Assembly (NCBI GenBank): GCA_010093605.1
Contig: MU004182.1
Span: forward strand, 1,273,032-1,337,031
Reading direction: 5' to 3'
Origin: Lophium mytilinum
Lineage: Eukaryota > Ascomycota > Dothideomycetes > Mytilinidiales > Mytilinidiaceae
Length of the DNA: 64,000 bases
The notes beneath the pieces are model-generated. The model had not been told where the DNA came from. It saw nothing but the letters and a program-made list of their open reading frames with translations, and did no database searches. Numbering within the stretch: the first letter of the stretch is position 1; the number at the start of each line of letters is the position of its first letter. Below are positions 23,885-46,830 of the stretch, in pieces. The position numbers and the translations under genes are program-made.

Positions 23885-24131
23885 TACATTGCCATACCTG
23901 GCGACTGATTTCATGCGATGGCATATGCTTTATATCTGTTCTAAGATTCGTTACACGGGAGCAGCTTTCATTGTTCAAACGATGGTCCGTATAATACAAA
24001 TACTGTACTCACCCGATATGCAAGCCATTTTAGCTGAGAGGATGAGGCTGGGTAGCTTCAATAGTGACAAGACCACATGATACCGCAAGTATATGTACTC
24101 GCAGGTGTGATAGACTGAGAAACGAAGCTTA

Positions 24132-26876
24132 CTAACCATGACCCCCATCTGGTGGAATAGCATTAGAAAGGGGTTGATTGATAGGAAAGTAATTCAAGAA
24201 GTCCAGATCACTCTCCATTATAAACTCGCCAAGATCCATGCCTAGAGGAGACTGGGGGTTTGCGTTCCCTGCCTGCGTCGGGATAGGCGTGATCTCACCA
24301 TGAGAGTTTAACAGGGCAGTGTCATTTCCAAGGGATAGAGGCTGTAGGGGCATGCCAGTTGGGGAGTCCGAAGCTGTGCGAGGCATTAGTATCTTGGTAA
24401 TCGGGGTTAGGACGAATGTGTCAAAACGACTTACCGAGTGATATTACTACATGGCCCAAGCGACTCAGGAATGTGGCACAGGTTTCCACCATGCTATTCC
24501 CTTTGTCAAGAAGCATCAGGGCGTCAACTGCTGCCTGTACGGGTCTCTCGGGTCCGCCTAACAAAGCTGGCAAAGATGTAGCAGCGCCAGTCAGACCAAT
24601 CTTCTGGTCGACTAGTATGCACGCAGATATCACAAGCCCTGCATTGAAGACTGATGAAAATTAGCTCGACAGTCTTTGGTCCGAACAGCAGGCTGGCCAA
24701 CGCACCATAGTAGAGAGAGAACCACCAAGCACCCAGATACTCATGGCGCACATCAGTCGAGTGAACTATGGTACTCACAATAGAGATGATCTCCAGTGAT
24801 GAGTGAGCACAGATCTGCACGCTGTTCAACCCAATTTGTCGGAGCAATGCGAGCTCCTGCTCGTCCCGGTCAGCCTTGCCACAAGTATCGAGGAATCGAA
24901 CCACCACAAGGCGGTGAATTAGAATGCGTAGGTTGTGATAACGTAAGGTTAGAATGATCCTGTAGCGCTCGGTATCGTCTTCTTCTGATAGAATCTCCTG
25001 AGATTTTCGGAGGGCCATGTTAGCTGGTAGAGAACGCTCCCACTCCATAAGCTGCTGTTCCATCTTGAACAGATATGCCATGAAGTCAAGAACGCTGGTG
25101 GATGATCCACAGCCAATGTTGGCCGCATAGAGGAGGTCTATCACGTTCCACATTACTTTGTAAAGCGTGCTGCTAGAAGTTAGTTGTGTTAGAAAAGTAC
25201 CTGAATATTGCCGCACATTGTCATGGTATAGAACAGGGTACTATTCCGCTTTCGTGGATCTACCGCCGAGTTGTCTGCAGCGATGCAATCGAAATCAACC
25301 GGCAGTTCCAATCTGACATAGCTGTCCGGGATTGCTGCAGGCCGACCAAAGGTCATGCTAAGTGTCCTAGATTATGTAATTATCAATACCTAAAGCCACA
25401 ACAACCGAACATTGGACAACCCACCTGTCTAAGATGACACAACCATACCATAGACGTTTGCTGGTTTCCCGTTCGATAGGTGACAGCTTTTCACAAGCTT
25501 CAGCCGAATGCAACCCGAGCTGCAGAGCGGCCTTGACGGCTAGTCCATGGATGTTCCAAGTTTGGGTAGACTTTTGAGTTCCTTGTAGATACTGCCCCAT
25601 CATGAGAAGATATTGGACTATATGAATGAAATCGTAAGTCTTTCTCGCGTGTTTTGGGATGATTTCGCAATGTGGTGCCGCAAGCAGTGGAACACTTACC
25701 CAGTTCTATACTTGCTCCTCGCCAGACGTGTTTATCACACAGACCAAGTGCCCTTCTATAATATACATCTGACATTTCTGCACGCTGTTCCGCACAGGTT
25801 CCGTTCGAGACAGTCGTGCTGATCGCAAAAGCCAGCACCATATTTAAGAGCCCTAGCCATGTTTTACGGACTTTTGTAAAGTCGGTTCTCTTCATGGCCC
25901 GGTACGTCTCTAGAAAGGTTTCTTCGTGCACATAAGGAAATAGCAAACCCGTGTTGGAGAAGTACCGGTGCACCAGGTCAAGGGTCTCGTCTTCTGGCGG
26001 TAAAGCGAAAAGATTCAACGGTTGGACTCTCAAATGGCGTAGACGCATGCTGTCCTGAGTTCTTGCTGGTGATGGGGGTCGAGACACTCTCATGAGTCCA
26101 CCATCCAAGTGCAGGCTTACGTGGGTGCCTGGCGTTGGATAAGTATGGTCGGTGTATGAGAGTCGGGCCACTGCTCGAGAGAGATGACGAGTGAAAGCGA
26201 TGTTTGATGAGGGGCCTATGCCCTCGTCAGTGACTCCTCAATTGACGGCATCATTACTCTGCGCATGTTCACCAAAGAAGCCGGAATACTCTTCATCGGT
26301 AAAGACGATTGCTCCCATGCCATCTGTCGAATCTTGGTTGGCACCATCATGTGCGTCTTCTTCGTTGGCACCATCATGTGCGTCTTCTTCGTCGACTGCG
26401 GCTAGTCCAGAACGGCGACTGGAGAAGAAAGGGCCCCGTTCTTCAGTGATACGCGCCTGTCTGCCCCGCCTCGTAGAGGAAGACGGGTGCAGTGGCGATG
26501 TATCGTGGCCGTTATCGACACCGTCCAGCCTCTGCTCAACATCTGACAGGCGATTCTCGAGTGCAGCAAGATAGCTATGGCAGCTGTGAGCAGTTGCATG
26601 CCAAAGATATACTGAGACGCTTACTCTTTCCCCACTATCACATTCGAAGATGCGGCTGACGCCACGTAGATACAATCAAAATCCAACTCGTCGCACGTGG
26701 AGCATTGTGGTCGCCGACCATCGCACTGCGCAGCCGCATGCGATCAGTTGATGCCATTTTCAAGCGAGGTGAGGCAAAAAAGGGGTCGTTACCCGAGACT
26801 TCCGCGTGCGACACGCCTGGCAGGCCAATGCGATGCGCCGCCTCTTGCTGGTGCTGCTTCTCCCATCTGCATCCAT
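24132..26876 (-). CDS. Zn2Cys6 transcription factor with fungal_trans domain
   Basis: Nine exons fit the frame: 26876-26793, 26725-26625, 26583-26258, 26215-25700, 25617-25425, 25366-25217, 25169-24706, 24638-24435 and 24373-24132, giving about 759 residues. The binuclear zinc cluster, CQACRTRKSRCDGRRPQCSTC plus DC, is split by the first intron after CRTRKSR, a common place in these genes. A coiled linker (YLAALENRLSDVEQRL) follows, then an acidic stretch with a tandem DEEDAHDGAN-type duplication. The middle-homology region includes LFPYVHEETFLETYRAMKR, VQYLLMMGQYLQGTQKSTQTW, LWYGCVILDR and LSMTFGRPAAIP. Junctions around exons 6-8 use weaker donors and are the least certain. It lies between the MpaB-like and P450 genes and probably regulates one or both. 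Confidence 0.88.
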
Positions 26877-27374
26877 CGCTCGGCGGGTCTGATCAGAAAG
26901 AGATGCCGGCCGATGTGAGCTGTTCGTCGGACGTGCTGGGCGCAAAGTGCCCACGGTGCCCAAGTGGGGTTCGAGGACTGCCCTCGGGTAGGTGTCCGCC
27001 GGGGAAACGGCGGACTTAACGTTGCCATCCGAGAGGGCCAGGCGGCACGGGGACTCGGCAGTCAACAACAAGCGCCACAAATTTATTTCATTGGTGATGT
27101 GGCTCCATCAACGCCTCCAACAATCCCTAAAGGAGCAGGTTGCGATAGGAATACTATTAGAGACGTCTTCTTCTCTGTGAACACCTACAGCAGCCTTCCA
27201 TACGAACGTGCAAGCCTCGACAGTCCCGAAAATGTGGAGTTCAAAGCGTGGAGGAACACGTCAACATCTGCAGCTTCGCGGTGGCTCGAATTGCAAGCCA
27301 TTGAGGGCAAGACGAAACTGATTTCAATGTAGTCCTTTCCGGGCCTTCGAGCACACATCCCACCTCTCTATCTC
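26877..27374. other. Intergenic, upstream of the transcription factor
   Basis: 498 bp separating the start codon of the Zn2Cys6 gene from the stop codon of the P450 gene; both are on the minus strand. The open frames on both strands have no domain content. Confidence 0.45.
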
Positions 27375-29142
27375 TCATTTTGACGCTCGTAGGCCTACGC
27401 GCACGTTGCACTCTATGACCTTGACAAAGAAGCCTTCCCGGGACTCTGACGGCACGGAAATGGTACGCTCAAATTGGAACAGACGGAATATTGTTGCAAG
27501 AGTCTTCAACATCTCCATCCATGCAAAACTGCGTTTTGTTAGCACTACCGCCTACCCATCGAGCGCCATGTGTCTGTGCTTACTTTCTACCGACGCAAGC
27601 TCGTGGTCCTGTTGAGAAGGGCACGAAGTAATTCGTCAAGTCACTGGCATCCTCCACAAGCCAGCGCTGAGGATCCAGCTTTTCTGGGTTCTGTACCGTC
27701 ATTAGAACCTGTGCTACCAACGTTGCAGGAGCACATACACGATATATTTGGGTGTTGTGATGGATCGCGACTGTCGGCACACTGACCAAAAACCCTGCCG
27801 GTATAAATGTGCCAGCCACCACCCTACCTCCCTCTGGAACCACGCGCTCAAGACCAGTAGAACTCGTTGGTCTCAAGCGCATCACCTCTTTGAGCGTGGC
27901 GTTGAGAAGACGCAATTTGCCTGAGACCTCTTCTGATGCGACCCAATCAGAATCTTGCGACCCAGGGAAGGCTTCCAAGAGCTCCGTATAAATATCAGCC
28001 TGGAGCTTTTGGTCTCGAGAAACAAAGTCCATGAAGTTGGTCATTGTGCTGCTTGTCGTATCACTGCCGCCAACAATGAAGCTGATTGCCTCAGCAAGGA
28101 TTTCCTTGTCGGGAAGTCGATCACCAGTATCAGGGTCTTTAGCGTTGAGTAAGAAACTCATCAAGTCTTTACGCGCGGTGGAAGTATCTTCCTTGCGCTT
28201 GCCAAACGCCGCTCGCCCAATAGCCTCTAGACTCGCCGTTGATCGGAGACCTTTGTAAAAGAATGGATCAATGCGAACATACTTCATATACGGCCGCATC
28301 CAACGAGGCAGATGCCCCATTGCGTTCAGAACCTCTCCGCGGGTATCGATTGTGTGGATCAAATTGTAATCGTCACGTCCAGATTCCAGGAATCCAAATG
28401 GGCTTCCAAAAGAATACTCGCCAATGACATCGAAAGCCAGAAAGTTCGCTGTCGAAGTTAGATACATGGGAGTGGCTTAGGAAGAGGTAGACATACACCA
28501 ACGGCAAAAGTCAAAAGACTTGGACTCAGTGACACATTTTTGCATGTATTGCACGAGCCTTGTGATGCTAGGATTCATGTGCTCTTCAAAGTCCTGCAAA
28601 TTTCTTGCTGAGAATGCCGGACTGACATATTTCCGTTTCCTTTGGTGTATACTCATGTCACGGGTATTGAACAAGACAGGCTCTATTTGATTAAAGGGTG
28701 GACAGGGTCAGTTGTGGAATCCAAAAGCCTTGGTGGTAGGAGCCTTATCTTCATAAAAGGGACCTTTCAGAAATCCCGTCTTGTGTCCATATATTTGATT
28801 GAGAGCCTGTGGATCGGCAATAGAAACATGATCGGGGGCTATCCGCACAAAGACACCATGCTTCTCATGCTGCTCTAGAATCCAAGCGGACCTGCGGGCT
28901 TTCCGACATTGAATAATGAGCGGTAAAGGGCAAATTTTGGACCAGAAGGATCCTGGGAGGCGTCGCAAGGGATGAAGAGCAACCTGGTATAAACAGTAGA
29001 CTGTCTAAGAGTAGGATCAGCTAGAGTGTCTAATGTCGAGCTACTTCACACTCACAACTAGAACAGGTACGATCAAAATAAGCATTGAAAGGCTTGTGGA
29101 CACCCATGAAAGGAAAGCAGTAAGAGTCATTTTCAGGCTCAT
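27375..29142 (-). CDS. Cytochrome P450 monooxygenase
   Basis: Six exons (29142-29056, 28983-28729, 28680-28497, 28448-27739, 27690-27584, 27528-27375) give 498 residues. An N-terminal membrane anchor (MLILIVPVLVV) is followed by HPLRRLPGSFWSK. The I-helix oxygen-binding motif is GGSDTTS, the K-helix ExxR is EVMR, and the heme loop is FSTGPRACVG. Joining exon 2 to exon 3 needs care: read straight through, a TGA stop falls at 28710-28708. A 48 nt GC-AG intron (28728-28681) with branch-like CAACTGACC removes it and yields FYEDKAPTTKPVLFNTRD, the family's spacing before LFNTRD. If that intron is not real, the gene is broken. Substrate unknown. Same strand as the neighbouring Zn2Cys6 gene. Confidence 0.86.
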
Positions 29143-31002: not shown

Positions 31003-33846
31003 TCAGGCCCATCGAAAGACTCTCCAAAAAGTTGATTGTTGACCCCGTTGGTTCTTCACAACCTCATCCATCCTGGTCAGTAGCCTCGCTGCGTCATCAC
31101 GCTGAAACACCATCTCTAATATCTCCTTCCCGCTCAAGTTACTCTTATATTTTGGTGTGTGTCCAAGCTTCCTGACCTGGTTCACAAATTTGACGGCTGG
31201 GTCCGCCCCGTGTTCCACCATCGTCTCCGCCGCCCCATACCAGGTACTCTTCACGTGCGCGGAGACCAGATCAGCGTTCTCAAAGCACGACAACAAGAAA
31301 AGGGCCCAAACACTCTCGCCGCGATAAATTTGCACTTTCTGATTTGGATCTGAGCCGGATTTCAGGAGGGCTTCCACCATTTTTACGTTTATATTCAAAT
31401 CCTGGTACATATGTTGATGTGGAAGCTCTGCGAGGGTACCGCGCATCGGTCTTAGTGCGTAGTCCAGTAACGGACGTCCACGCTTCTGGAATATGATCCC
31501 TTGGTTGGCTTCAAGCTCCTTGGTGACGTAGCAACGTAGCCGTGCTTGGATGGCTAAAGACAGGAAGCTACACTGCCCGTAATCCCGAAGCGTGGCGCTG
31601 GGCATTTTGATCCTATCTCGGGAGTTTGTCCAGTGCACTTTGGAGTCATTTGCGTGGAGCGTCATGACGCGGTCTAGCTCGTTGACTAGAGCAGTGTTGG
31701 AAGACGCAATTTGATGCTCAATTTCGCGAGCGTAGTGGAGTAACTCGTCGACCAGACCGAAAAGTTGATTCAATCGGTCCAGCGAATCCGTTGGTCCCGG
31801 GAGCGCCTTGATGAGGGCAATGAGCACACTGCATAGGGTTTTTCGCGCGTTGAAGTCGGCCGAAAGGCGATTTCGCAGCTCGCTATGGTAGTTGTCTCGC
31901 AGAAAGTCTCGAACAGTCCGATGAAGGAAACCGACTTTGTACTTGAGGAAAGTCCCGTCGTAAGGATAGATGTTTACCTCGAGAAGGTCTCTGCAGCGGC
32001 TGTTCAGAAGTTTCCTCCATCTCTTTACCGAGCTAACTACCTCGTCGTCAGACACGGGTGACATTGCCAACTTGAGAGCAAAATCTGGGCTCTCATGTTC
32101 CATATGCAAATATTTTAGCGCTAGGACTGGAAATGGTCGCACGGCTTCCACGGCAGTGAGAAATATCATCGCCGTCTCTTCGCGGTAGATCTTATCAATC
32201 CGACCTAGTATATCCTCAAAGTACTTCTCTAGCTCTTCTGGAAAGCTATCCAGCCTACGCTGCAGAAAAGGGTACTCTTCCTCGCCCTTGAGATCTCTTA
32301 AAAGATCTCGAACAACCAGGTAAACCCAGAGCCAGACTCCGTGAGCTTTCCCTGCAATCTGCGGCACGAGAGAGTTGCATCGGGGGTCCTGTTTAGCAAC
32401 TCGGGCAAAGGTGGGATCCTTTGCCAGCAGGTTGTGTACATACTCTCGCATATCGTCCCTAGTAAGATCTTCTAGGACCAACTTCCACTTGCTTTGGTCA
32501 AAGGCGTCTATGAAGGCATTCCAAGGCCGACTAGACACACAGAGTTTGATATTCTGAGATTTAGTAAGTCCTTGTAGAAGACCGATGATTTCTTCATTAT
32601 CACCCTCATACTCATCTAGGCCATCCACAAAGAAGCAAAATTTCGTCGGCAGAATGGTCTGTTTGGCGATGATCTCAAGGGCGTTGGAAAGCTCCTGAAA
32701 TCCCCAAGGGCCATCATGCGACAAACAGGCCTCGAATATCAGTACTGGACATGCAAGTAGTATCTGATATAGTAAGCTCTGTAGTAGCCCAACCTGGGAT
32801 TTTTGCATCGGTAGTCCAGGATTCCAGAAGAAGTAGCTTGCAGTTACAAGCTTTTGAGGTCCAGCCCACTCGTGAAGCTCCCTTAGAGTAAGGTTATTGC
32901 CACAGATGTACTTCATAAGCGTAGATTTGCCGCTTCCAGCCTTTCCTTTCACCCAATATATACCATTCTCCGACTTCAACCAGTCCATGAATCCGGTTTC
33001 GGGCTTCCTAAAGATCCATGCCAAGGTCTGTTCGTGGGCGTCTTTGATCTTTTCCTGGCGCTGCTTCATCGAATCGAAGATCAAGCTTGCGAGGATCCTT
33101 TGCTCCCGTTCTACCCTCTTCCCAGCATCAGCAAGAGCAGCCAGCTTCTGCCATAGGCTGTCTAGTACCACTGTATTGCTTGTAAAGGGTTGTGGCCGTT
33201 CGTTGAGGGCAACGATAACATCCGCTTTCAGTTGGTCGAGTTGTAATGTTGCGTTGATCTTCATGCGCTCATTTGTTTGGCAAAGGGTCTTGATCGCCGA
33301 GAGAACCTCAGAATGGTTGTTCCTTGGGGTTTTTATCAGCATTGATGTAAAACCAACCACATTGTAACTCATTGTAGAATCCACCTACTTTTGAAGCATG
33401 CTTGATATTCTAGATCGCAAACGTTCGTCAATACCCAGTAATCTCTGCTGCAGCTCCTGTATGTCCCTCCTTTTCCCCACACCCCTGAGGGTCTGCCTCA
33501 CCGTCGCTAATCCCCGGAATCGCGCATCCTTCGCGACTTTCAAATCTTCTAAGATTTCTAGTAGCTTGTCCGCCAAGGGCTCGCATGCCTCGGCTAGCTT
33601 CCTAAGCGCTTTTTCATCATTCGACAGTGGCCGTGGGAGCTCCTCGGACCCGTTCTTAGTCTTGGATTTCGCCTCCTCAACAAGGGTTTTGATGTCTTCG
33701 ATGATGATCTCGAGCTCGTGGTGCTCATCACTCGTGCCATGGTTCGCCTTATAGACGTCTTTTCCTTCGGAGATCAGCTTGATACCGTGGCTGACGAATT
33801 GCGCAATGTTCGCGGCGATCCCGAGAACAATGAATGCTTCGGCCAT
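31003..33846 (-). CDS. NLR-like STAND NTPase (NACHT type)
   Basis: Two exons, 33846-33389 and 33322-31003, separated by a 66 nt intron (GTAGGT donor, CCCCAAG acceptor), give 925 residues. Without splicing a TAG stop interrupts the frame, so the intron is needed. Residues 1-150 form a helical fungal STAND N-terminal domain (EAFIVLGIAANIAQFVSHGI). The NTPase shows Walker A GKAGSGKSTLMK near 279-290, Walker B FCFFVDGLDEYEG near 381-393 and the sensor LCVSSRPWNAF. The C-terminal part is long and helical with weak ankyrin-like spacing (LLDYALRPM, MVEALLKSGSDPN, MVEHGADPAVKF). Fungal proteins of this class are linked to allorecognition and programmed cell death. The neighbouring HET fragment fits that setting; the ligand and effector are unknown. 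Confidence 0.85.
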
Positions 33847-34751
33847 ATTCCGTAGTTTGATATTGCAGAGTGAGGATAATTAGACCGACGCCATCGTATT
33901 TGAGGAGCGCCGAGGATATGACACATTCTCCGGTTCGCAAGGCTGTGACCGGTGAAGGTTTGAAGGTTGGCCAAGAGTACTTTAGCAATCACGCATACGT
34001 GTGCCAATTAGGGGCCGCAGTAGGCGAAGCGCAAGGCATAAAGGCATCCATGCAAAATCTGCGAGTTGTGTTCTACGAACTCAGCAACCAGTAGGCGAAG
34101 CGCAAGGCATAAAGTCATCCATGCAAAATCTGCGAGTTGTGTTTTACGAAATCAGCAACCAGCGTCAAAAGCTCAGGAAAAGAGTAGCTTGCTGCGTAAG
34201 AGAAAACTGTTTCTGATCCACGCGATACTTCTCCTCATAGTTCTTGATCATTCTTAGATGCAAACAGGTTCATGGACGATTTCTACCTTGGTGCCTCATC
34301 CATACTTTCCGCCTACTGTTGGGCTGATTTATGAGGCTGTTGTGGGGGGCTGAACTTACGGTGACAGCCTCATTACCCTCAGCGCCCGCCTCCAGGCTGC
34401 AACCTCGTGGCACAGTCTAGACAACAGCAGTCGCAAATTGATAATAGGGACAAGGTGAAAGTTTTAGGAATCGGCAAGGCAAAGCCCTGAGTTCATTACG
34501 ACTTTCAGTTGCCGATCCAGCAACGGGTCGTGTCTATACCAGCGGCCTGCCTTGGAGCTCGTCAGGCTTGGACTGACTGGCACGCGGTAAGCATGTTTCT
34601 CTTCATGTGCTCCTAGCGCCTGACTTAGACCTACGACTTTGCATGGCCTAAACTCTAGAAGGTGCGTCGCAAGGGATTCACTGCGTCGACTGAGGGCCTT
34701 TTTATTGAGTTTTGCTAACTGTGGATTGTTATAGCGCGTTGATCCTTCACC
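33847..34751. promoter_or_regulatory. Divergent intergenic region between the NLR and MFS genes
   Basis: About 0.9 kb between the start codons of two divergent genes. It includes a 71 bp direct duplication (34021-34162), annotated separately. No gene is supportable inside it. Confidence 0.5.
34021..34162. repeat. 71 bp tandem duplication upstream of the NLR gene
   Basis: Two adjacent copies start with TAGGCGAAGCGCAAGGCATA at 34021 and 34092. They differ at only a few positions (AAGGCATCC/AAGTCATCC, TTCTACGAACTC/TTTTACGAAATC). The near identity points to a recent duplication. It is non-coding and lies 175 bp upstream of the NLR start codon. Confidence 0.9.
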
Positions 34752-36692
34752 ATGGCAACTCTTGAAGTCTACAACAATCCTGTCCCTCACCTCCATAACC
34801 TCAATGACCCATCGCTGGAGTTTGCCTACGACAGCGAGGAAGACCATGATGCCGGAATTTCTCCCAATCTGAGTACCTATACTTCCGTGCGGCAGTCCTT
34901 AGATATACAGCCTCAAGCACCAACTGGCGCTCCCGTCACGCAAGAAAGAACAGCGCACGATTCTGAAAAGGGTGATCTTAAGAAGGACGGCATTAGCCAC
35001 CCTACCACATCCAGCGAAGGCGTGGACGATAGGGCTGTTACAACAGGCGAATCGCCAGAAGAGGGCGCTGGATTAGCAGACCCAAATGTTATCTTTTGGG
35101 ATGGCCCAGAGGATCCAGAGAACCCTATGAATTGGTCCAATAGCTTCAAATGGGGAAACTTAGTGGTCATCCTATACATGGTCTTTGTTACGTACGTGAA
35201 TTTTCTTCTTAAGCTATAATTAAAGTTACTGGCGGAACTCCTTTTATACCTCAACTGCTCTCCCGGGACGGTTACTTGGTCGCCATTCAGGCTCAGCTAA
35301 CCTGATTAGACGTCTGGCCTCCACCATGTTGGCCCCTGGTGTGCCGGAAGTAATGGCTAAGCTTCACGAAACCTCCAGCCTTCTGGCGCCCTTTGTTGTA
35401 TCCGTCTTCTTCCTAGGCGAGGCATTTGGTCTACTTGTTCTGCTTCCTTTGAGCCAAATATACGGCCGCCGTTGGATTTATATTATCTCTAACATCCTTT
35501 TTATCATCTTTACTATTGCATGTGGAGTCTCTAGTAACTTTCATATGCTTATCGGCTTCCGGTTTCTTCAAGGGTCAGCTGGTTCTGCGTCTGTAACTCT
35601 TGCACATGGAACAATTACAGATTTAATGCCACTTAAAAAGAGAGTTTCGGTACAAGTCATCTTTGGGCTACTATATGGTGCTGGGTTGTTTCTTGGCCCC
35701 GTAACTGGTGGATTTCTTATACAAGCGAAAGGTTGGCAATGGGTCTTCTACTTGACTGCATCATCGGTAGGTTTAATCATCTTTTAGTCTCACGGCATAC
35801 TTATACGACTACGCAGACCGGGTTCATTCCCATTCTTGGATTCTTTCTCTTAAGTGAGACTTTCGCTCCGGTACTTCTGGAACGAAGAGCTGCGAAGCTT
35901 CGCGTAGATACTGGCAACCTGGACCTCCACTCACCCTCAACCATCTTACCGAACGAGGTTTTCCGCCTTAGCATCGTGCGGCCTATTAGACTGCTGCTAA
36001 CCTCGCCTATTGTCCTCTTTATGTCACTTTACGTAGCTTTGGCCTCTGGAATATTTTGCCTGCTCCTTTCAACTATGACTTTTGTCTTGAAAGAGAGATA
36101 TCACTTCTCCACCGGCATAGTTGGGCTCACCTATATTGGTGTAGGTGTCGGCCGAATTGTTGGCCAATTCTTTATCGGCGTCTTTAGCGCATATCTTCCC
36201 AACAAGGCTGAGGGCAAACTATTGAAGCTAGAACATTATATATCCATAACGCTAACGGTCCTTGGCGGTTTTTGGATGCCTATTGGACTCTTCATGTATG
36301 GCTGGGGAACAGAGAAAGTCATTCACTGGATCGTTCCACTCATTGGTACCGCATTTGTTGCGGCAGGGCTATGGCACAACTACGTATGTATCCCTAATTC
36401 GAGACCCTCTCTTTAGTTCCTTTAATAGATTTAGTTAACGTTCTTTCTATAGAAGACGGCCGTCAAATATATCATACGTGCGGTCAAGATAGAGGACAAC
36501 ACTTCTGCAACAACCGCTATAATAGTCTTGCGTCCCGTTATTGATGCTATACTTCCTCTCGCCGGTCTTGTGATATACGATAAGCTTGGTCTTGGCTGGG
36601 GGAACTCACTTCTAGGGTTTATTGCCCTTGCATTAATCCTCATTCCCGTCATCTTCAAGGTTTACGGAGAGCGGACAAATTCAAAGTACTAG
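34752..36692 (+). CDS. MFS transporter, likely exporter of the peptide cluster
   Basis: Four exons (34752-35191, 35310-35766, 35817-36383, 36453-36692) give 567 residues. A long acidic cytoplasmic N-terminus leads to DPENPMNWSNSFKWGNLVVIL, the signature entry of the fungal drug:H+ antiporter-1 type transporters. It is followed by MLAPGVPEVMAKLHETSS, GEAFGLLVLLPLSQIYGRRW and AHGTITDLMPLKKR. The C-terminal membrane part ends DKLGLGWGNSLLGFIALALI. The last helix pair (36453-36540) matches the family less well than the rest, so exon 4's start could be slightly off. The gene lies head-away from the NLR gene and tail-to-tail with the repeat-peptide precursor, 133 bp apart. I infer that it exports the peptide product or protects the producer. 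Confidence 0.85.
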
Positions 36693-36825
36693 ACTAGTAT
36701 GCTGTACTATCAGCCTTTGTGCCTCCAAAACTTCTACGACTATCAACGCTAAAGCGGCCCCAGTTGGCATCAAATGTTGAATTTGATCATTCCTTGCGAC
36801 AGTGGTGTGTCGTTAGACAGGCTGT

Positions 36826-37382
36826 CTAAACAGCTTGCTTGATCTCTTTCCGCTTCTTCCAGTCTCCGGATTGCCAGAAAGCAAGATCTTCCGAAGCCTC
36901 CTCTGCATGCCGCTTTGCCTTCTCCTTAGCATCGCGTTTCCAATCCCCGGATTGCCAGAAAGCAAGATCCTCCGAGGCCTCTTCCGCGCTTCGCTTCACC
37001 TTCTTATCCGCATCACGTTTCCAGTCCCCGGATTGCCAGAACGCAAGATCTTCCGAGGCCTGCTCTGCACTTCGTTTCGCGTTCTCCTCTGCGGCACGTT
37101 TCCAGTCCCCAGATTGCCAAAACGCGAGGTCTTCAGAAGCTTCTTCTGCATTTCGTTTGGCCTTCTTGTCCGCTTCGCGTTTCCAATCGCCGGATTGCCA
37201 GAAAGCAAGATCCTCGGAAGCCTCCTCGGGGCTACGCTCGGAGAGTGCATTCTATACAGCTTCAGCCTCCTATGATGTCTGATAGACACTGTTCGAGGAA
37301 TACATACCCTTTTACTAGGCTGCAGAGGTGTAGCCACGACTGAGGCAGCCAGAATCGAGATGGCGAGAATGCTGCACTTCAT
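36826..37382 (-). CDS. Secreted Kex2-type repeat precursor, candidate dikaritin (RiPP) precursor peptide
   Basis: Two exons, 37382-37308 and 37251-36826, give 166 residues. Exon 1 encodes a signal peptide (MKCSILAISILAASVVATPL) ending with a KR site, exactly where the intron falls. Exon 2 encodes five copies of a unit whose conserved block is EASEDLAFWQSGDWK, four followed by KR and the last by KR after an extra Lys. A six-residue spacer ending with another KR (EADKKAKR, AAEENAKR, DADKKVKR, DAKEKAKR) separates the copies, with an 81 nt period. Kex2 cleavage would release five near-identical acidic peptides ending in LAFWQSGDW. Across all five copies the DNA of DLAFWQSGDW differs only at synonymous third positions. 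The neighbouring UstYa gene makes a cyclised dikaritin-type product the best inference. Alternatives are a pheromone-like or secreted repeat protein that is not cyclised. Confidence 0.85.
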
Positions 37383-38286
37383 GTTTGTCAAGATTTATTA
37401 GACGAGAGAAAGAGCTTCAGAAGAGTGTCTCCAATGATGACCGGAAGATTCAGTGCTGTCGGTCCACAGTCTTTTATACCACTGCAGCTATTGTCAGCTT
37501 CTGATCAGTATTCGGATTTGGATGCAGGCATCCCGGGCGTCACACGTAGGAAACAAAGCTGTTTCTGGTATCCTAACGCATGCCCCACTTGACATGCTGA
37601 CAAGAACTAGGTGTCGGCCAACATTTCACATTCGGCGCCACTATTTCGTATGCATAAACCTGACCTGCTTAGGTTTCCCGGCTGTCTCAAAGAGTCTTGA
37701 AGCGTCAATCCACTCATGTTGTAGTCGCCCAGGTTCATGATCCTCAAAGTTTCCCAGAACCAATACTAAAAGGGGAAGATTTGCATTTCGTTTCTGGGGT
37801 TTGGTATATGGGCCACTTGCCGATCCCTGTTAGAAAACTTATGCTACTTTAGGAATCGAATTGATCAATACCCATGTCGATCACTTGTAATGCTCCGGAA
37901 TCGCTCGGAGGACGCCACCCATATTACATATTGCAGACTGAAACATCCCCACAAAACAAATTGAGCTGACATTGTACAAGACCCATTGCATCATAGATCC
38001 TCGCATTGAAATGGGGGCCGTATTATTATGTACGGGTGCCGGGACGAACCGACTTCCGAAACGTAGATACCCCAATCCTACAGCTCCTCCCGATGTAAAC
38101 CATGCTTTATTTGAACAAAGCTTGTGGAGCACGTAACAGGGCCCCGAGGAGCGTAATATATACTAGATATTTCTCGTCGCCACGTGACTATTCGATCAAC
38201 AGCTTGGAGAACAACACCGTTCAGAGGAAAGACCTTATTTATCAAATTGCATCTTGGATAACTAATGATGCTGATCATCTACGTAT
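37383..38286. other. Intergenic, promoter of the precursor gene
   Basis: About 0.9 kb between the precursor start codon and the UstYa stop codon. Short frames (37453-37740, 37881-38132, 38102-38290) show no domain. No additional precursor copy was seen. Confidence 0.45.
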
Positions 38287-39281
38287 TTAAGTTTCCCTCT
38301 TTTCTTCTACGGGCCTCTTGTTCCGTGTCAATTTGACAACCTTTCGGTCCTTCGCCCATTGGATGAGTGAAGTCCAGTCGCGACAGGTATGGACTACGTG
38401 AGCCTCGGGATGTAGCAGGTCAGTTCCATCAGTCTCATTTTTGCCCCATTTCCAGGGTAATGGAGTTACATCTCCCGAACACATTAAGCTCTGCCGGATA
38501 CTGTCCACACAATGGTCAACATGCTCGAGCTCTAGCATTTTCTCCTCTACATATGTGTCAGGAACTACTCCCCACACCTTTTTGCGGATGATGTTCTAGC
38601 TCAGAGCGAGTTAGACGCATGCGCTATACTAACGAAGACAGGAAGATCAATTGAACACATACCAGACAGTGCATTTGATGGAAAACGTCTATTGAGACCA
38701 AATAGTTTTCTGGGTCATCGGGTATCCGGACCGTCTTATTTACAAGTTTTGCCGCCTCTATTGCGGATATTCGAGTTATCGTAGCTACATCTAGTGAGTA
38801 TACTACGCTCCTTAGACTCGTCTAAATGACGCTTGTTGACTTACAAGGATATAACTCTTCCCATGCTTGTTCAACCTCCACAGTCGGTGGGCCTTGGAAT
38901 TTTGTGACTTGAGAACGAAATCCAGAGGCATAAACGACATCATGAAATCGAATCGCATCATGAACAGGTGCTACCCTTTGTATTAGCACTGTAATGTACT
39001 CTGCTGGCTGCCGTTTACCCACAATACACTCCATGAGCTCGCTCAGCTCGATCAGCTGCACTAAACCACAGGACGGCGTTGAAGGATAAAGAGACGCCAA
39101 GAATAATACACTGCACGACTATGATAAGGCTAATCCGGAGGCGCTTTTTGAAAGTTACTGGTGACAGCGCGTTTTCGACTTCGGTAGACTTGCGATTGAG
39201 GAAAGGCTCGCTTTCGAGCTGCTTATCATGAGGGGAGGAATCAGTGGAAAGACGCTGGTCTGTCGTAAACATTGCGTTCAT
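38287..39281 (-). CDS. UstYa-family (DUF3328) oxidase
   Basis: Four exons (39281-39067, 38975-38845, 38790-38663, 38595-38287) give 260 residues. A cytoplasmic head of about 48 residues precedes one membrane helix (LRISLIIVVQCIILGVSLSF). After it come the family segments YASGFRSQVTKFQGPPTVEV with EQAWEELY, then the first HxxHC motif in DVFHQMHCL (residues 153-157), and the second in EHVDHCVDSIRQSLMCSGDV (residues 183-187). The end matches too: HTCRDWTSLIQWAKDR. UstYa proteins install ether or C-C crosslinks in dikaritin precursors such as ustiloxin, phomopsin and asperipin, and both metal-binding HxxHC motifs are intact here. It is on the same strand as the repeat precursor and about 0.9 kb upstream of it. 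Confidence 0.92.
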
Positions 39282-39934
39282 TGACTTTCATCAACCGTAC
39301 GAAGGTTTCCGATGAGATGGAGGAGGTGTATCGCAGCGGACACAACAACGGGAATGTTTCGGGGTCATTCGGTGGAGCTGGACTAAATTGGGGCACGTTA
39401 GGTGAGACGCTCTACACGTCTCTACTACTTTTGCAACAACTAATCCGGGCTGAGGCAATAATAGTTTGCAAAACCCGATGCCAACCCCATATGAGCAATT
39501 GAGTCGGATCTGCTCTGATCCGTGGAGCCGGCGACGATCGCCTCTAAATATGGAAGTAATGCGATGTCCGCAGGAGGACATTGCTTCTGCATCTACAAGG
39601 GATATGTCGTCGGCACATCGGGATCGCGTAAGATGCCTAATCGCATCCTGGCACCTATGAGAGCCAGGTACTACGTATACAAGGACATGGAAGTATGCTT
39701 TAAGGTGGGTACCCAACAATGGCAAATTCCGGTCAGCCCTAAAGTCTTATATCTAGTTGTGGGTAACCAATAAGGACTGAGTATATAAGCTCACAAACTT
39801 GATGAAGTGGTTGTATAGTATCCCATCTCCTTGTTCTCACTATCTCGCAGCGGACATCACTCTTTCAATAATACCGCAAGTCCAATTCGGTCCGTCGAAA
39901 CACCCAACAAATCTCAACCTAAGGCCCCACTTCC
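39282..39934. promoter_or_regulatory. Divergent promoter between the UstYa and FAD oxidoreductase genes
   Basis: 653 bp between two divergent start codons of the putative peptide cluster, suggesting co-regulation. A TATATAAG-like stretch at 39783-39790 is placed suitably for the FAD gene. Frames inside (39291-39725, 39522-39773) have no domain content. Confidence 0.5.
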
Positions 39935-41332
39935 ATGGTTTGGTCAACATCATGGCTGTTTCATGCCATCGTTACTGCATCCCTTGCCATCGGTACGGCA
40001 TGCTCACAACCATCCGGACATGAAGCAATCACCCGCGATGTGTGCATCATCGGAGGTGGTGCCTCAGGCACCTACGCAGCCGTACGACTGCAAGATTTGG
40101 GATTCAGCGTTACGTTGATTGAGCAGGACGACTCCCTTGGAGGAATGGTGAATACATACACCGATCCGGACGGCGACATCCCAATCGACTACGGGGTAGC
40201 AGACTACCGTTCAAACATCTCTGTAGTGGAGAGTTTTCTCAAGCGCCTCGATATCGCGTATGGTCCTTCGGAATCTACAGAAGGCACTACCGTGCGGGCA
40301 AACCTGGATACCGGCCAGAGAGTACTAAACTATACGTCTCCAAATGCTCTCGATGCTCTGACCCGATACGGCGAAGTGGCCGCCAAATACTCAGAACTGG
40401 AACATGGCTACTATCTTCCCGAACCCGTCCCGGAAGATCTTCTGATGCCATTTGGCCAGTTCATCGAGAAGTACAATGTTAGTGGTGTTATCCACGTGGT
40501 CTACCGCAGCTACGGGGATATCCTGCACCAGCCTACCCTTTACGTGATGAAATACTTCGGAGCCAACGCCATCTACAATCTCTTCAACGGTTTCATAGGC
40601 ACCAAGAGCCAGAATAACTCTGAAATCTACGACAAAGCTGCCAGAGTGCTAAGCGGAAACGTAATGCTCCATAGTCACGTGGTCTCAACGAATATGACTG
40701 CAGATGGGGATGGGTTAATCGAGATTAGAGTTCAGTCACCACTGGGTCTGGAGATCATACGAGCGAGGAAGCTAGTAATAACTATTCCACCTCTAATCTC
40801 TAACCTGGATGGGTTCGATCTTGGTAATTCGGAAAAAACCCTCTTTGGTCAGTTCCAATCAGTCGGCTATTACACATCTCTAGTCCAAAATACGGGACTT
40901 CCAGCCAATACAGCAGTCCTGAACACAAACAGCAACAACCTTTACGACCTGCCCACCCTCCCGAGCGTCTACCAGATCGTCCCTACCAAAGGCACTGGGC
41001 TGTATCAGGTGGAATACGGCAGCCCCTCCCCTCAGCCAATCGAGTCCGTCAAATCAGACATCCTCGCCTCTATACGCCGGCTAAAGACTACCGGAATCGC
41101 TAATGTCACGGAAGACGGCGAGCCTCAATTCGTGGCATTCGCTTCCCACACGCCATTCCAGCTGACAGTCCCCGCCGACGCCATCAAGTCCGGATTCTAT
41201 TCGAAGCTATACGCGCTACAAGGCCAGAAGCAGACGTTCTACACGGGAGCTGCATTCCACGCATATGACTCGTCGCTGCTGTGGCGGTTTACTGAGGATC
41301 TACTGCCGAAGATCTCAAGCGGCTTAAATTAG
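39935..41332 (+). CDS. Secreted FAD-dependent oxidoreductase
   Basis: A single exon of 465 residues. An N-terminal signal peptide (MVWSTSWLFHAIVTASLAIG) is followed by DVCIIGGGASGTYAAVRLQD, a classic FAD-binding dinucleotide motif, and by LIEQDDSLGGMVNTYTDPDG. Later segments KLVITIPPLISNLDGF and FYTGAAFHAYDSSLLWRFTE close the FAD fold in amine-oxidase-like style. Several NxS/T sites support passage through the secretory pathway. It resembles fungal secreted flavoproteins annotated as beta-cyclopiazonate-dehydrogenase-like; that name should not be taken as its reaction. It is divergent from UstYa, and I infer that it oxidises the secreted or ER-resident peptide product. An unrelated small-molecule role is possible. 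Confidence 0.82.
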   Translation: MVWSTSWLFHAIVTASLAIGTACSQPSGHEAITRDVCIIGGGASGTYAAVRLQDLGFSVTLIEQDDSLGGMVNTYTDPDGDIPIDYGVADYRSNISVVESFLKRLDIAYGPSESTEGTTVRANLDTGQRVLNYTSPNALDALTRYGEVAAKYSELEHGYYLPEPVPEDLLMPFGQFIEKYNVSGVIHVVYRSYGDILHQPTLYVMKYFGANAIYNLFNGFIGTKSQNNSEIYDKAARVLSGNVMLHSHVVSTNMTADGDGLIEIRVQSPLGLEIIRARKLVITIPPLISNLDGFDLGNSEKTLFGQFQSVGYYTSLVQNTGLPANTAVLNTNSNNLYDLPTLPSVYQIVPTKGTGLYQVEYGSPSPQPIESVKSDILASIRRLKTTGIANVTEDGEPQFVAFASHTPFQLTVPADAIKSGFYSKLYALQGQKQTFYTGAAFHAYDSSLLWRFTEDLLPKISSGLN

Positions 41333-42246: not shown

Positions 42247-44850
42247 TTACTCAAGCACCACAGTCTCAAAACCCGGCCCAGCCTCCCCCCATTTCCTCAG
42301 ATACACATGCCCAATGCCAAACCTCCGCCACACACCCCCTTCCCTACTCTCACCAATCATCATAACATTAAGCGTCGGCACATCATCCCAAGGATGCAAC
42401 AAACCCCCCTCCGCGTCGAAATAGCTCAAACTCTCTAAATGTTTCGCATAAGCAATATCCCGCTCCTCTGATTTCGAAATCCAGCGTCGAGGGCGCGGCG
42501 GCCATTGGCGAGTAGGGAGATGTTCAAGACGCTCCGAGAAGGCGGAGCATTGCGGACAACTTGGTATATGCTGGAGCGCTGTGGTATCTAGGTTTGAGCA
42601 TTGCTCTGTTTCTTTTTCGGTAGCAGTCTTACTGCAGCCGCAACCATACAGCGTACTCACGTCTACATGCTGAGAGCACTCCCCGAGCAGTCCGGCCATA
42701 AGCGCCGTCCCAGGGTACTGCGAGGTCGAAAGCGCGATAAATCTTACTGGCATTCCCTGTCCGAGCTTCCTATATGGGCTTGCCCAGTGTTCGGGAAGGT
42801 AGATACCGCCTGCGACCAAGCCTTCCTTGCTTCGAAGTAGGAAAGCATGCCGTCCCGCTCTGCCGGTCACAGCATCAGCAGACTCTTGGGTGAGGTAGTC
42901 TAGGGTGAACCACGCTGTCTGTGCGTGTACCATGATACGGCCAGGGACCCGGGCCAATTCGATGTCACTGTCAGAGAAAACGGGATTCGCTTTGTCTTTG
43001 TAGGTGTCGAAAGCGTCATGCCAGTATGTGACGTAGTCGGGCCATTTCAGCTGAAGGCGGGCTTTGTATGCTTCTCGTGGACAGTCTAGAAGCAAATAGA
43101 CGTGGCTTTTAGAGCGGATGCAGCCGGTTTGCCAGGCCAGAGCTGCGACGATGTGAGCTTGGAGCGGATAATTGACGTCGTAGAAGAGGACTTCATCCCT
43201 CCTGCTCGGTTCGGGAATGGTTAATATCGTTGGTTGAGTATTAGTCGATGTGACGATACCCCAGAATGCAAGACTGCATCCCCGTGGGGATGCGCCACGG
43301 AAATGAATGGGGCCGTATGCCGACAGCCATGACCATGTTGGAAAGGTGTTGTTCGCACTTCTACGGATGCTGGTGTTATCGAATGACTCCCATAGGATAG
43401 CCCGATCAAACGCTTTCAAGGGCATGCCAAACACCATATGAGGCCCATACATCCCGTTCAAAATGCCCGAAAAAGCTCGCAGGATATCACCAAGATACGT
43501 CAACGATCGCTTCGTGTAAGCCTCGACCCTATCCATATAGGACACTTGGTCCATTAATGTGGCAGATACCTGCGCGGGTCCCTCTGCCTCAAGGACTAGA
43601 TGTTGATTTCGGCGAGAGCGGTAGTACACGCCAAAGTCAGTGAAGTACAGCATTGCTATCGATGCTTCCGATTCTTGGTAGGTCCAGCCACGTGTTTGCC
43701 ATTTGCTTTGGTTCAGACACATGGAGAGGCTTGGAATGCTTTCAATAAGTTCGATATCGTGCAGGTTCAGCCTCTTTTGGACCGATAGACGTGGGAGGGT
43801 GACGCCTGGGAGGCCGTAGGTCGCGCCTTGTCCTGCTACGGCCACTATAGTAAATGCAGCTTTCCGGTAGATAGCACCCATTTGATCCAGCTGGGTAGCT
43901 TTCATTTCCGGAAAGTCATCCTGGATAATACAAAGCCTGTCTATCCATAAGTAATTTTGGCCAAGAGCTTTGCATGCTGCTATTGCGTCCGTGATGGTAC
44001 GTGGAAGTTCCACGCGTGCTAGACTACCTACTTTGCCTAGTTCAGAAATATTACTTCTCACAGTTTGGAACTGGCCAGCCGGCTCTGTGCCCCATACATA
44101 AGATAGAGCAACATATCTGCAACTAGGAGGTAGGTTTACAACACGTGATTGAGTGATGTCTATGACCCTAACATCTCGAAGCTCCCTTTCAAGATACGGG
44201 AGGGTTTCACTATCTTGCGTAGTGGTAATGTGTTGTTCGGATAGCCAACCGCCGATTGTAGGCCAGTCTACGGTCTCACTAAGCAACACCCTTCTATCGA
44301 GCTGGAGCAATCCTGTCCCTGGTTCTTTGGAGGCATTGAAGCGGGCGTATATATTCTTACTCAGAGGTCCGATACGACAGGGACCACCCGGAACTCTTGG
44401 TAAACCTAGAGAGAAGGTTCCATTCATCATGATAGCTACATCATTTCCCGAATGTTTGCAATGAGCAATCAAGCATGTCGCAACAAAGTCGCAAAATTCG
44501 CAGTCCGCGGAACCTTCATGGAACGGGTCGATAGTCACAACTGTTTCCGTCTTTTCGTGTGAATCGTTTGTAGGGCGGCATATAATAAGGTGTCGAATCC
44601 GCAGATGTTGGCACGTAGTGCACAGCCTCGGCGGTAATAGCTGTTCTGCTTTGGAACAGCTAGGGCACTCGATATGGAATAGACCCCGTTTATAGGTGGC
44701 ATCGGCTTTTCGAATGCCATTCTGGCTCCATGAATCAGCGATCAACGTGACCGTCTGAGAGGAGCAGAGGCTGCATGGGTTCTGCTCGTCGAGCGGCGGC
44801 TGCTTTATTGATGAGGTAAGGACGGTACTGAGCTCTTCTGGTGACGCCAT
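42247..44850 (-). CDS. HET-domain protein with Cys-rich N-terminus, 867 aa
   Basis: A single uninterrupted frame from ATG 44850. The HET domain starts near residue 246 with RYVALSYVWGTEPAGQF and continues with LPRTITDAIAACKALGQNYL, WIDRLCIIQDD and AAFTIVAVAGQ; the block WQTRGWTYQESEAS follows. N-terminal to this are four CxxC pairs (residues 26-29, 62-65, 77-80 and 117-120), which could bind zinc. A further Cys-rich patch (YGCGCSKTATEKETEQCSNL, then CPQC) lies near the C-terminus. HET proteins trigger cell death when incompatible fungal cells fuse. The protein looks intact. It is followed upstream on the same strand by a second HET gene 345 bp away. Confidence 0.88.
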   Translation of the reverse strand: MASPEELSTVLTSSIKQPPLDEQNPCSLCSSQTVTLIADSWSQNGIRKADATYKRGLFHIECPSCSKAEQLLPPRLCTTCQHLRIRHLIICRPTNDSHEKTETVVTIDPFHEGSADCEFCDFVATCLIAHCKHSGNDVAIMMNGTFSLGLPRVPGGPCRIGPLSKNIYARFNASKEPGTGLLQLDRRVLLSETVDWPTIGGWLSEQHITTTQDSETLPYLERELRDVRVIDITQSRVVNLPPSCRYVALSYVWGTEPAGQFQTVRSNISELGKVGSLARVELPRTITDAIAACKALGQNYLWIDRLCIIQDDFPEMKATQLDQMGAIYRKAAFTIVAVAGQGATYGLPGVTLPRLSVQKRLNLHDIELIESIPSLSMCLNQSKWQTRGWTYQESEASIAMLYFTDFGVYYRSRRNQHLVLEAEGPAQVSATLMDQVSYMDRVEAYTKRSLTYLGDILRAFSGILNGMYGPHMVFGMPLKAFDRAILWESFDNTSIRRSANNTFPTWSWLSAYGPIHFRGASPRGCSLAFWGIVTSTNTQPTILTIPEPSRRDEVLFYDVNYPLQAHIVAALAWQTGCIRSKSHVYLLLDCPREAYKARLQLKWPDYVTYWHDAFDTYKDKANPVFSDSDIELARVPGRIMVHAQTAWFTLDYLTQESADAVTGRAGRHAFLLRSKEGLVAGGIYLPEHWASPYRKLGQGMPVRFIALSTSQYPGTALMAGLLGECSQHVDVSTLYGCGCSKTATEKETEQCSNLDTTALQHIPSCPQCSAFSERLEHLPTRQWPPRPRRWISKSEERDIAYAKHLESLSYFDAEGGLLHPWDDVPTLNVMMIGESREGGVWRRFGIGHVYLRKWGEAGPGFETVVLE

Positions 44851-45195
44851 CGTGATATAAATGTAGATGCTTAAGGACGAGGGTTAGCGACCTATATACG
44901 TTCGCGTATTCTCTGTCCTGGGCTCGAGGTTGTTGTTTGTGGCTTGCCAGGTTCCAGTTTCTGGCCCCCAATTCTCGAGTAAACTTGCCTTCGAGATTTG
45001 GCGTCCTAGGGCTGATCGATCTGTCCGCTGCCTTGTCCTCTGCGCAGCACCTCTTGGCATTGTCACTAAATCAACTTTCTTCTTTACCAGGTCCAGATAC
45101 TCCGATCGTGCTATTTCCCACGTTGTCCGCTCAGAGTTGGTCTTTCTAAGCACTGCTCTCCTTTTTTCAAGTCTGAATTCTCAATCATCCGTCAC
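44851..45195. other. Intergenic between the two HET genes
   Basis: 345 bp containing the promoter of the 867 aa HET gene. Frames on both strands are open but carry no domain. Confidence 0.45.
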
Positions 45196-46830
45196 TCACT
45201 CCCATTGCCAGTGTTCAGCCGCAGTCGTGTCGTCGATACTCCAGCGCACGAAAGAACCTGCGGTGCGAGCGAACATGCACAGAGCGGTCAACTCTAGTAA
45301 CCCCACCTCTAGCCCATAGCCGACGATGCTGTCGTTGACCGTCCGGCCCTTCAGAGACGGCAAATCGTTACGCATAAGCATAAGCGTGGCTTGCATGTCC
45401 CGGTCCATTTTCAGGTCTTCTTCGGCATGGGAACATGAACTCATTACCCCAAGCCCGACGACGCGATACGGGATTACGCCTTCCTCGTTTGCATTGTAAT
45501 GAATCGGTCGGCAAATACAAGCAAGGCGCTGGTTTGGGGTAATTGGACTCTCGAAGTTGAGTACGAAGACAGTGTCAGTCACGGCAGGGATGTCGAAGGT
45601 CCACATGTGGTGCAATGATGCTGTTCCAGGAAATTCGCGGACGGTGAAACGGACGAGAGAGGGGTTTTGGGTAGTGTTCTCCATTTGGGGGCCTGCAAAC
45701 TCCTGCAATGGGTTGTCGACCACGAAGGAAGGTGATGATGTAACTGAACGACCGAACCGAGTGAGTTTCGCGAAGAAAGATCTGGCGATCATGTTCTCTG
45801 CCAACGTGGACGTCGGGCTGGATCGTAAAATTTCTTTTGCGCACCCGAAAGCGCGTCCTATATCCACTCCGAGACGCGTGGATAGGGTATCGCAGAATGG
45901 TAGGCATGGGATTCCGTCGTAGACAGCTTGGGGAAGCGGGCAGCAGCTCATGCTCTGCAGGAACAACATCTCGATAGGAGAGGAGTAATCAGGCACAAGG
46001 CTACCAGGGTTGTCTTTTGTGTCTGATGCAAGACTTAAGAGGCCATAGATCAAGTCTCGGGGCTCCAAACACCTGGACATGTGGCATTGGAAGAGTAGTT
46101 GTCGAAGTGTTAGCCTGGTAGCGATGATGCGGAGCTTTTTCAGTTTGCCAAGCGGGTGGTTCGGGTTTCTCATACCAATGAACTGGGTGCCAGTATCCTC
46201 GTCCGGCATGTGGAGGATGAAATCGGGCCAGGTAGAGGACCGGTCGCCACAGAAGATATGGATGTCCGACGCGAGAACGAGCTCTTGGATGATCCAAGTC
46301 CGTGTCCAATACTCGCGACGTTGAAGAGATGCAATGGCGGCTGAGAGAGAAGTTCCAGACTCAGATTCGGCGGTTGTAATTGATTTTGAAGCGGCTGGAT
46401 TGAAGGAGTCAAAATATTTCTCGCTCCCATCAGCTTGAGGTCCAAGCCAGACAAGTACTGACTTTGCATTCGAGTAGATTAGTCCCATCAGTGGGACTTG
46501 GATGCTCTTTTCCAAGTTATCCTTCTGATTGATACAGAGAGCATCAACCCACAGGGTCACAGCCGCATCGGCTAGACGGAGCTGTTGTAAGAAGTCGAAA
46601 AGATTTGCTTGAATGGCATGGACCACGCCATTAAGCTCTATCTCTTGGAAGAGGCCAGGAGCTCCCCAAGTGTATGAGGCAGCATAGTAGACTGGATTTG
46701 ATGTCAAACGGCTGTGGGCGAGGGAGCATACTATGATTTCTTTTCGTTCTCCGGGCAAGAGCTTTAAAAGACGAAAGTCCATGGGCTCTTGAAGAGGTTG
46801 ATAGGTGCAATTCTCGGATTTGAATGCCAT
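45196..46830 (-). CDS. HET-domain protein, 544 aa
   Basis: A single exon. The HET domain is at the N-terminus: YYAASYTWGAPG near residue 48, LWVDALCINQKDNLEKSIQV near 91, then GLIYSNAKSVLVWLG and YWTRTWIIQELVLASDIHIF. The C-terminal half shows RCLEPRDLIYGLLSLASDTK and DYSSPIEMLFLQS. This is the common het-6-like layout. The end of the protein is divergent, with no 'GRxxFxT' tail obvious. The gene looks intact. It is a candidate allorecognition gene; its target is unknown. Confidence 0.88.
   Translation of the reverse strand: MAFKSENCTYQPLQEPMDFRLLKLLPGERKEIIVCSLAHSRLTSNPVYYAASYTWGAPGLFQEIELNGVVHAIQANLFDFLQQLRLADAAVTLWVDALCINQKDNLEKSIQVPLMGLIYSNAKSVLVWLGPQADGSEKYFDSFNPAASKSITTAESESGTSLSAAIASLQRREYWTRTWIIQELVLASDIHIFCGDRSSTWPDFILHMPDEDTGTQFIGMRNPNHPLGKLKKLRIIATRLTLRQLLFQCHMSRCLEPRDLIYGLLSLASDTKDNPGSLVPDYSSPIEMLFLQSMSCCPLPQAVYDGIPCLPFCDTLSTRLGVDIGRAFGCAKEILRSSPTSTLAENMIARSFFAKLTRFGRSVTSSPSFVVDNPLQEFAGPQMENTTQNPSLVRFTVREFPGTASLHHMWTFDIPAVTDTVFVLNFESPITPNQRLACICRPIHYNANEEGVIPYRVVGLGVMSSCSHAEEDLKMDRDMQATLMLMRNDLPSLKGRTVNDSIVGYGLEVGLLELTALCMFARTAGSFVRWSIDDTTAAEHWQWE

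Follow-up and report, generated by a model that had tools for sequence, protein, structure and literature searches.

The stretch analysed here, a 64-kb window of the genome of Lophium mytilinum (a dothideomycete of the order Mytilinidiales; positions are window coordinates), contains four intact genes between 34752 and 41332, encoding in this order an MFS transporter (+ strand), a repeat-containing peptide precursor (- strand), a UstYa (DUF3328) protein (- strand), and a secreted flavin adenine dinucleotide (FAD)-dependent oxidoreductase (+ strand) (Table 1). Mytilinidioid fungi are described as inhabitants of bark (PMC11514609). When the gene models were re-derived, all introns in the cluster were of the GT-AG type and all exons joined in frame, and domain matches were obtained for the transporter, the UstYa protein and the oxidoreductase, which bears out the four-gene cluster proposed in an earlier note on this DNA. 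The locus is very likely a UstYa-type cluster for a ribosomally synthesised and post-translationally modified peptide (RiPP). The transporter scored 131 bits against PF07690 (cut-off 33.4), and its gene converges with the precursor gene across a gap of 133 bp; it is presumed from its position to be a member of the cluster, and its product is presumed from sequence and family to be an exporter.

The precursor is encoded by two exons separated by a single 56-nt GT-AG intron. Exon 2 lacks Met and has an in-frame stop upstream, and is therefore readable only through exon 1, which provides a hydrophobic N-terminus that is, judged by eye, typical of a signal peptide. Across its 166 residues the protein contains 10 Trp, no Tyr, and one Cys located in the signal region. 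As the earlier note had described, five KR-bounded repeats are present; they are spaced by exactly 27 residues, and Tandem Repeats Finder reported an 81-bp period with 4.6 copies (score 434). Units of the form ...ASEDLAFWQSGDW, bounded by KR (KKR in the last), alternate with 6-residue spacers. The core suggested previously, DLAFWQSGDW, recurs in all copies, but the block identical in all five is longer and comprises 14 residues, ASEDLAFWQSGDWK, with two Trp and neither Tyr nor Pro. In an open reading frame (ORF) scan, the precursor was the only KR-bounded repeat ORF in the window, and its only match in its own genome was at this locus.

The five copies differ at the DNA level. The copies vary in 11 of the 14 codons of ASEDLAFWQSGDWK, in each case silently. 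Across the 10 pairwise comparisons, 58 silent versus 0 replacing differences were counted in total (approximately 8 silent and 34 replacing sites), whereas the four 13-codon spacer stretches, also summed pairwise, showed 30 silent and 40 replacing differences; the copy pairs are not independent, and the contrast is given without a P value. The restriction of variation in the core to silent changes, against amino-acid-changing variation in the spacers, indicates that the exact core is under selection. Thus, the copies have drifted in DNA while the core peptide stayed fixed under strong selection. No occurrence of AFWQSGDW, LAFWQSGDW, SEDLAFWQ or FWQSGDWKR was found in the open-licence literature, in agreement with the view that the core is undescribed, though absence from print overall is not thereby established; in the same literature, no paper naming L. 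mytilinum was on peptides by its title. NCBIfam generated no match to the precursor, and a match to Fusello_VP2_Capsid at 20 bits (cut-off 27) was rejected as a composition artefact.

The UstYa protein matched PF11807 with 163.9 bits, the match covering positions 6-220 of the 220 in the profile. Both copper motifs of the HxxHC type attributed to it previously, HQMHC and HVDHC, lie inside this match, and the His and Cys residues of both motifs, plus two further Cys, were invariant in 17 aligned relatives. Its gene contains three GT-AG introns (52, 60 and 67 nt), and the N-terminus consists, by eye, of a tail followed by a single hydrophobic transmembrane helix. The public model for this gene (P0001, BU16DRAFT_451673, 206 aa) is 99% identical to the window UstYa over the matched part, and its differing N-terminus equals the unspliced reading of the window; its first intron is read through and the membrane helix is missing. 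This model was rejected because the Claussenomyces homologue described below matches exon 1 and the VYSP junction of the re-derived model. NCBIfam gave no match to the UstYa protein, and no solved structure was found for it with a single sequence (E ≤ 0.001) or a profile (E ≤ 0.1). DUF3328 proteins are Cu- and O2-dependent and catalyse hydroxylation, halogenation and macrocyclisation; the UstYa relative CctR has a dicopper site made of the HxxHC motifs, forms dimers with disulfides, depends on O2 and electrons, and places its catalytic domain in the lumen (PMC12435403). By homology with CctR, the window UstYa would likewise be a dicopper enzyme with a lumenal catalytic domain.

The oxidoreductase generated hits on NAD_binding_8 and Amino_oxidase in Pfam. 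Its nearest solved chains were two β-cyclopiazonate dehydrogenase entries at 260 bits (9vex_A of the PDB over residues 30-462, 2.9e-76), and all others scored at most 36.4 bits; only sub-cut-off matches were among the best 25 of 35 in NCBIfam. With a signal-like N-terminus (by eye) and six N-glycosylation sequons, the enzyme fits the lumen that would hold the catalytic domain of UstYa. The closest listed UstYa homologue outside L. mytilinum was M1818_001751 (P0002) of Claussenomyces sp. TS43310, with 60% identity over 97% (157 identical of 263 positions aligned with our model), and the other 25 UstYa homologues listed were at most 43% identical. The same fungus supplied the closest full-length FAD homologue among the matches listed, M1818_001750 (70% identity), and the two genes have consecutive locus tags. 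As Claussenomyces is a leotiomycete and such adjacency is hard to obtain by chance, UstYa and the flavoenzyme are, judged by locus tags, a pair kept between Dothideomycetes and Leotiomycetes. Mytilinidion resinicola also carries an FAD fragment of 295 aa with 88% identity, and its only UstYa among the matches listed is 34% identical; proteins more than 90% identical were merged in that list, and a closer Mytilinidion UstYa could sit in the two-member P0001 cluster.

The L. mytilinum genome contains 24 stretches matching PF11807, two of them in the window. The 11 other places were scanned in 13 stretches, each about 10 kb long, and KR-bounded repeat ORFs were present at three of these places (C1, about 2,474,000; C10, about 644,300; C12, about 1,804,500). 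The repeats at these three loci contain Tyr (e.g., YYGSYRPYASYGAYR, DALEFAGASYSHLY and STAYNAL...), and the window precursor alone lacks it. No other repeat ORF was detected in a small control, for which the remainder of the window and two stretches of 10 kb surrounding FAD paralogues were used. FAD paralogues were absent from the other UstYa loci of the genome.

These comparisons bear on two alternatives. Firstly, the repeats might yield linear, unmodified pheromone- or hormone-like peptides, with UstYa and the flavoenzyme forming a separate pathway alongside. DUF3328 was not nearby for 78% of the repeat precursors surveyed by Umemura (PMC7329392), genes of this family also work in pathways other than RiPP ones (PMC12048977), and the Claussenomyces pair, known here from its locus tags, was seen without a precursor. 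We nevertheless hold this to be improbable, because the gene next to the precursor on one side is that of UstYa, at the position where DUF3328 counts peak in the survey (PMC7329392), and because repeat precursors occurred at three of 11 other UstYa loci and at none of the control places. Secondly, the conservation of the flavoenzyme as a partner of UstYa agrees with a role in feeding electrons to the UstYa copper site in the lumen rather than in oxidising the peptide; CctR requires electron input, and a lumenal accessory protein was supposed by the authors (PMC12435403). There is little to recommend this role when the relatives of the flavoenzyme are small-substrate oxidases or dehydrogenases (β-cyclopiazonate dehydrogenase, amine oxidases), its homologues are listed in many genomes, bacteria included, and no other UstYa locus of the genome has such a gene. 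DUF3328 is not known from bacteria.

In the pathway that we favour, the precursor would enter the secretory pathway by its signal peptide, and Kex2-type cleavage at KR would release five peptides ending in ...SEDLAFWQSGDW together with the 6-residue spacers. Of the fragments that lie between the first dibasic site and the last, all nine have an X-Ala dipeptide at the N-terminus (NA, EA, NA, AA, SA, DA, SA, DA and HA), so that trimming of the N-termini by a Ste13-type dipeptidyl peptidase, as known from α-factor processing, may follow. The membrane-anchored UstYa would then oxidise the core in the lumen as a dicopper enzyme, the secreted flavoenzyme would oxidise the same peptide a second time, and export of the product would fall to the MFS protein. 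Because the core has no Tyr, any cross-link would need Trp, Phe or aliphatic carbons, and the likeliest product would be a peptide that carries such a cross-link or another oxidation at one of these positions, the aliphatic candidates being Leu and Ala. The calculated [M+2H]2+ values of the unmodified peptides are 964.4027 for SAEEASEDLAFWQSGDW, 885.3681 for EEASEDLAFWQSGDW, 612.7696 for DLAFWQSGDW and 555.2562 for LAFWQSGDW, and each loss of two H would shift them by -1.0078 at charge 2.

Oxidation of the core at a non-Tyr side chain is, on balance, probable, and participation of a Trp side chain in a cross-link has a somewhat less than even chance. UstYa might only hydroxylate, desaturate or halogenate the core without closing a ring: hydroxylation and halogenation are known for DUF3328 (PMC12435403), a DUF3328 protein desaturates in phomopsin biosynthesis (PMC10512285), and a core without Tyr agrees with such a role. 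We consider this outcome unlikely given that the only five characterised UstYa-RiPP products are all described as cyclic (PMC10512285). A more specific proposal is that UstYa and the secreted β-cyclopiazonate-dehydrogenase-type enzyme form a two-enzyme module that cross-links a Tyr-free peptide through an indole (Trp). β-Cyclopiazonate oxidocyclase, which has a covalent flavin, oxidises and ring-closes a Trp-derived compound (PMC3202784), and a ring closure of the cyclopiazonate type on the Trp-rich core is an attractive analogy, a lead and no more, since the FAD family is large, many of its members are probably simple oxidases, and the window enzyme has Met in place of the His of the GGH motif. 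This module is doubtful; if it exists, its product would parallel, in a fungus, the Trp-linked burpitides of plants and would form a class outside the five characterised dikaritins.

Several observations weigh against the favoured pathway. The earlier note had called for a search with the precursor; it was run on one protein database, with the 8000 candidates sharing most words scored, and returned no homologue at E ≤ 0.01, so that comparative support for the core is lacking, although low-complexity spacers may fill such a candidate list and a diverged core may be missed. No word of at least 8 bases was common to three upstream regions of the cluster, and 8 shared 7-mers were found versus 6.4 expected. 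In the Umemura survey, Trp occurred in 20.5% of the repeat precursors beside DUF3328 versus 24.5% of those without it, an argument against Trp being the residue that UstYa usually targets; only 22% of repeat precursors had DUF3328 beside them, and the enrichment of MFS genes was slight, which leaves the link of the transporter weak (PMC7329392). The flavoenzyme itself carries GGM at residues 69-76 (40139-40162), where GGH is found in 109 of the other 118 listed homologues that contain the motif; the Claussenomyces homologue retains the His. A further FAD homologue, P0031 (62%), was found in Aspergillus wentii, a species not named for any of the 27 UstYa matches listed. These last two observations, and the size of the FAD family (592 matches at E ≤ 1e-60 among 8000 scored; at least 120 listed), would be explained if the flavoenzyme were a chance neighbour and the precursor, UstYa and MFS proteins made the product. 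That is rather unlikely in view of the consecutive tags that the homologues of UstYa and the flavoenzyme have in Claussenomyces, a member of another class, and of the divergent arrangement of the two window genes, 653 bp apart, and the flavoenzyme is likely to belong to the pathway. Taken together, a compact Kex2/UstYa RiPP cluster with oxidation of a non-Tyr core, a flavoenzyme step and MFS export is the best explanation of the locus and a reasonably probable one.

The neighbours of the cluster are a SesA/NACHT pair to its left and two HET-domain proteins to its right. At 31003-33846 (- strand), a SesA-domain ORF is followed by a stop and then by a NACHT/NPHP3_N ORF in the same frame, which together resemble an NLR-like gene that is either intron-bearing or interrupted. 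At 42247-46830 (- strand), two tandem HET-domain (heterokaryon incompatibility) proteins adjoin the cluster. No further pathway gene was seen among the genes directly flanking the cluster. A flavoprotein ORF, a weak mpaB/rubber-oxygenase match (at the cut-off) and a P450 ORF are located within 8 kb of each other at 20277-28467; this group at 20-29 kb is perhaps a separate metabolic cluster and was excluded from the four-gene cluster. A 71-bp tandem duplication (two copies, 95% match) was found 5′ of the MFS gene at 34018-34162. Base composition was uninformative on foreign origin, with 48.2% GC in the cluster, 50.8% in the window and 47.2-56.9% in 4-kb bins.

Table 1. Features of the four-gene cluster and repeat precursors at other UstYa loci of the L. 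mytilinum genome
Feature	Position	Strand	Details and basis
MFS transporter gene	34752..36692	+	4 exons (34752-35191, 35310-35766, 35817-36383, 36453-36692), 567 aa; PF07690 and splice model
Precursor gene	36826..37382	-	2 exons (exon 2, 36826-37251), 166 aa; repeat analysis and splice model
Precursor exon 1, signal peptide and first KR site	37308..37382	-	Signal peptide by eye
UstYa (DUF3328) gene	38287..39281	-	4 exons (39281 or 39272 to 39023, 38845-38970, 38663-38784, 38287-38595), 271 aa (268 aa from ATG 39272); PF11807
UstYa/FAD divergent intergenic region	39282..39934		Possible shared promoter; position only
Secreted FAD oxidoreductase gene	39935..41332	+	465 aa, intronless; Pfam and PDB match
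Repeat precursor	C1:2472400-2482300, 1619-2590 of stretch	-	About 2 kb from UstYa match; Tyr-rich variable repeats YYGSYRPYASYGAYR, signal peptide in-frame
Repeat precursor	C10:637600-647500, 6714-7262 of stretch	+	Beside UstYa; six DALEFAGASYSHLY-type copies, signal-peptide-like exon just upstream
Repeat precursor	C12:1802000-1811900, 2549-3013 of stretch	+	Among three UstYa matches; four near-identical long repeats STAYNALAENPTQVEGADDVNLLAARIG

Many loci with a repeat precursor and UstYa are known from genomes, against five characterised products (PMC10512285). A cluster with a single UstYa and a selected, Tyr-free core raises the question of which other links a DUF3328 dicopper enzyme can make, and through the conserved UstYa-flavoenzyme pair one may approach the matter of which lumenal partner proteins work with UstYa. 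The system is small enough to be studied with one peptide and two enzymes. By title and the start of the abstract, no Trp-linked UstYa product was found in the open-licence literature, which does not establish its absence from print.

Dikaritins are defined at the gene level as RiPPs from Kex2-processed repeat precursors cyclised by UstYa homologues (PMC10512285). The locus, known here from its genes, contains the corresponding parts, KR-bounded repeats and an adjoining UstYa, and to this extent the dikaritin-type assignment in the earlier note stands. It does not extend to the Tyr-ether ring chemistry of ustiloxin, phomopsin and asperipin-2a (PMC7329392): with 10 Trp and no Tyr in the precursor, their phenol-ether bridge is impossible, and the locus falls outside the Tyr-ether dikaritins. 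Tyr is more frequent (65.6% vs 38.2%) in the repeat precursors that lie beside DUF3328 genes, but by subtraction 34.4% of the 1758 such precursors in the Umemura survey are Tyr-free (PMC7329392); precursors of this kind are thus uncommon, but known. The likeness to asperipin-2a drawn previously holds for the make-up of four genes, AprA, AprY, AprT and AprR providing a precursor, one UstYa homologue, a transporter and one oxidoreductase (PMC6514808), and fails for the oxidoreductase, AprR being an isoflavone reductase and the window enzyme a secreted FAD/amine-oxidase type; the asperipin-2a core, FYYTGY, is moreover joined by Tyr-ether links. The ustiloxin and phomopsin clusters share the KR-bounded repeats, UstYa homologues and, as judged by eye, the signal peptide with the locus, but have many genes and require a tyrosinase for a Tyr-Ile ether, whereas none of the 19 genome matches to tyrosinase (PF00264) lies within the window (C2:1273032-1337031).

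The nearest Tyr-free precedent is victorin of Cochliobolus victoriae, which also comes from a Kex2-processed repeat precursor and whose ring joins a C-terminal Phe to Leu without a Tyr link (PMC9233826); its pathway is larger and includes chlorination, and the likeness is one of description. Repeats that contain Trp and lie beside DUF3328 have been described in silico as type P-3 of the Kex2-processed repeat proteins (KEPs) of Umemura, in which Trp occurs with Pro (Fonsecaea, Cladophialophora, Galerina, Psilocybe and Coprinellus; PMC7329392), whereas the block in the window is Pro-free. CpaO, the β-cyclopiazonate oxidocyclase/dehydrogenase, shares the FAD fold with the window flavoenzyme over nearly its full length, a family homology, but acts on a small indole-tetramic acid substrate and has a covalent flavin; in the window enzyme the His of GGH, a candidate attachment site, is replaced by Met. 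Plant burpitide cyclases are also dicopper enzymes acting on Trp or Tyr of precursor peptides, and in lyciumins they yield a bond from Trp-N to carbon (PMC12186524), but they belong to an unrelated protein family and the analogy is one of chemistry. Against these systems, the Kex2/UstYa RiPP type is already known, and what is new at this locus is the Tyr-free core with two Trp together with the conserved UstYa-flavoenzyme pair.

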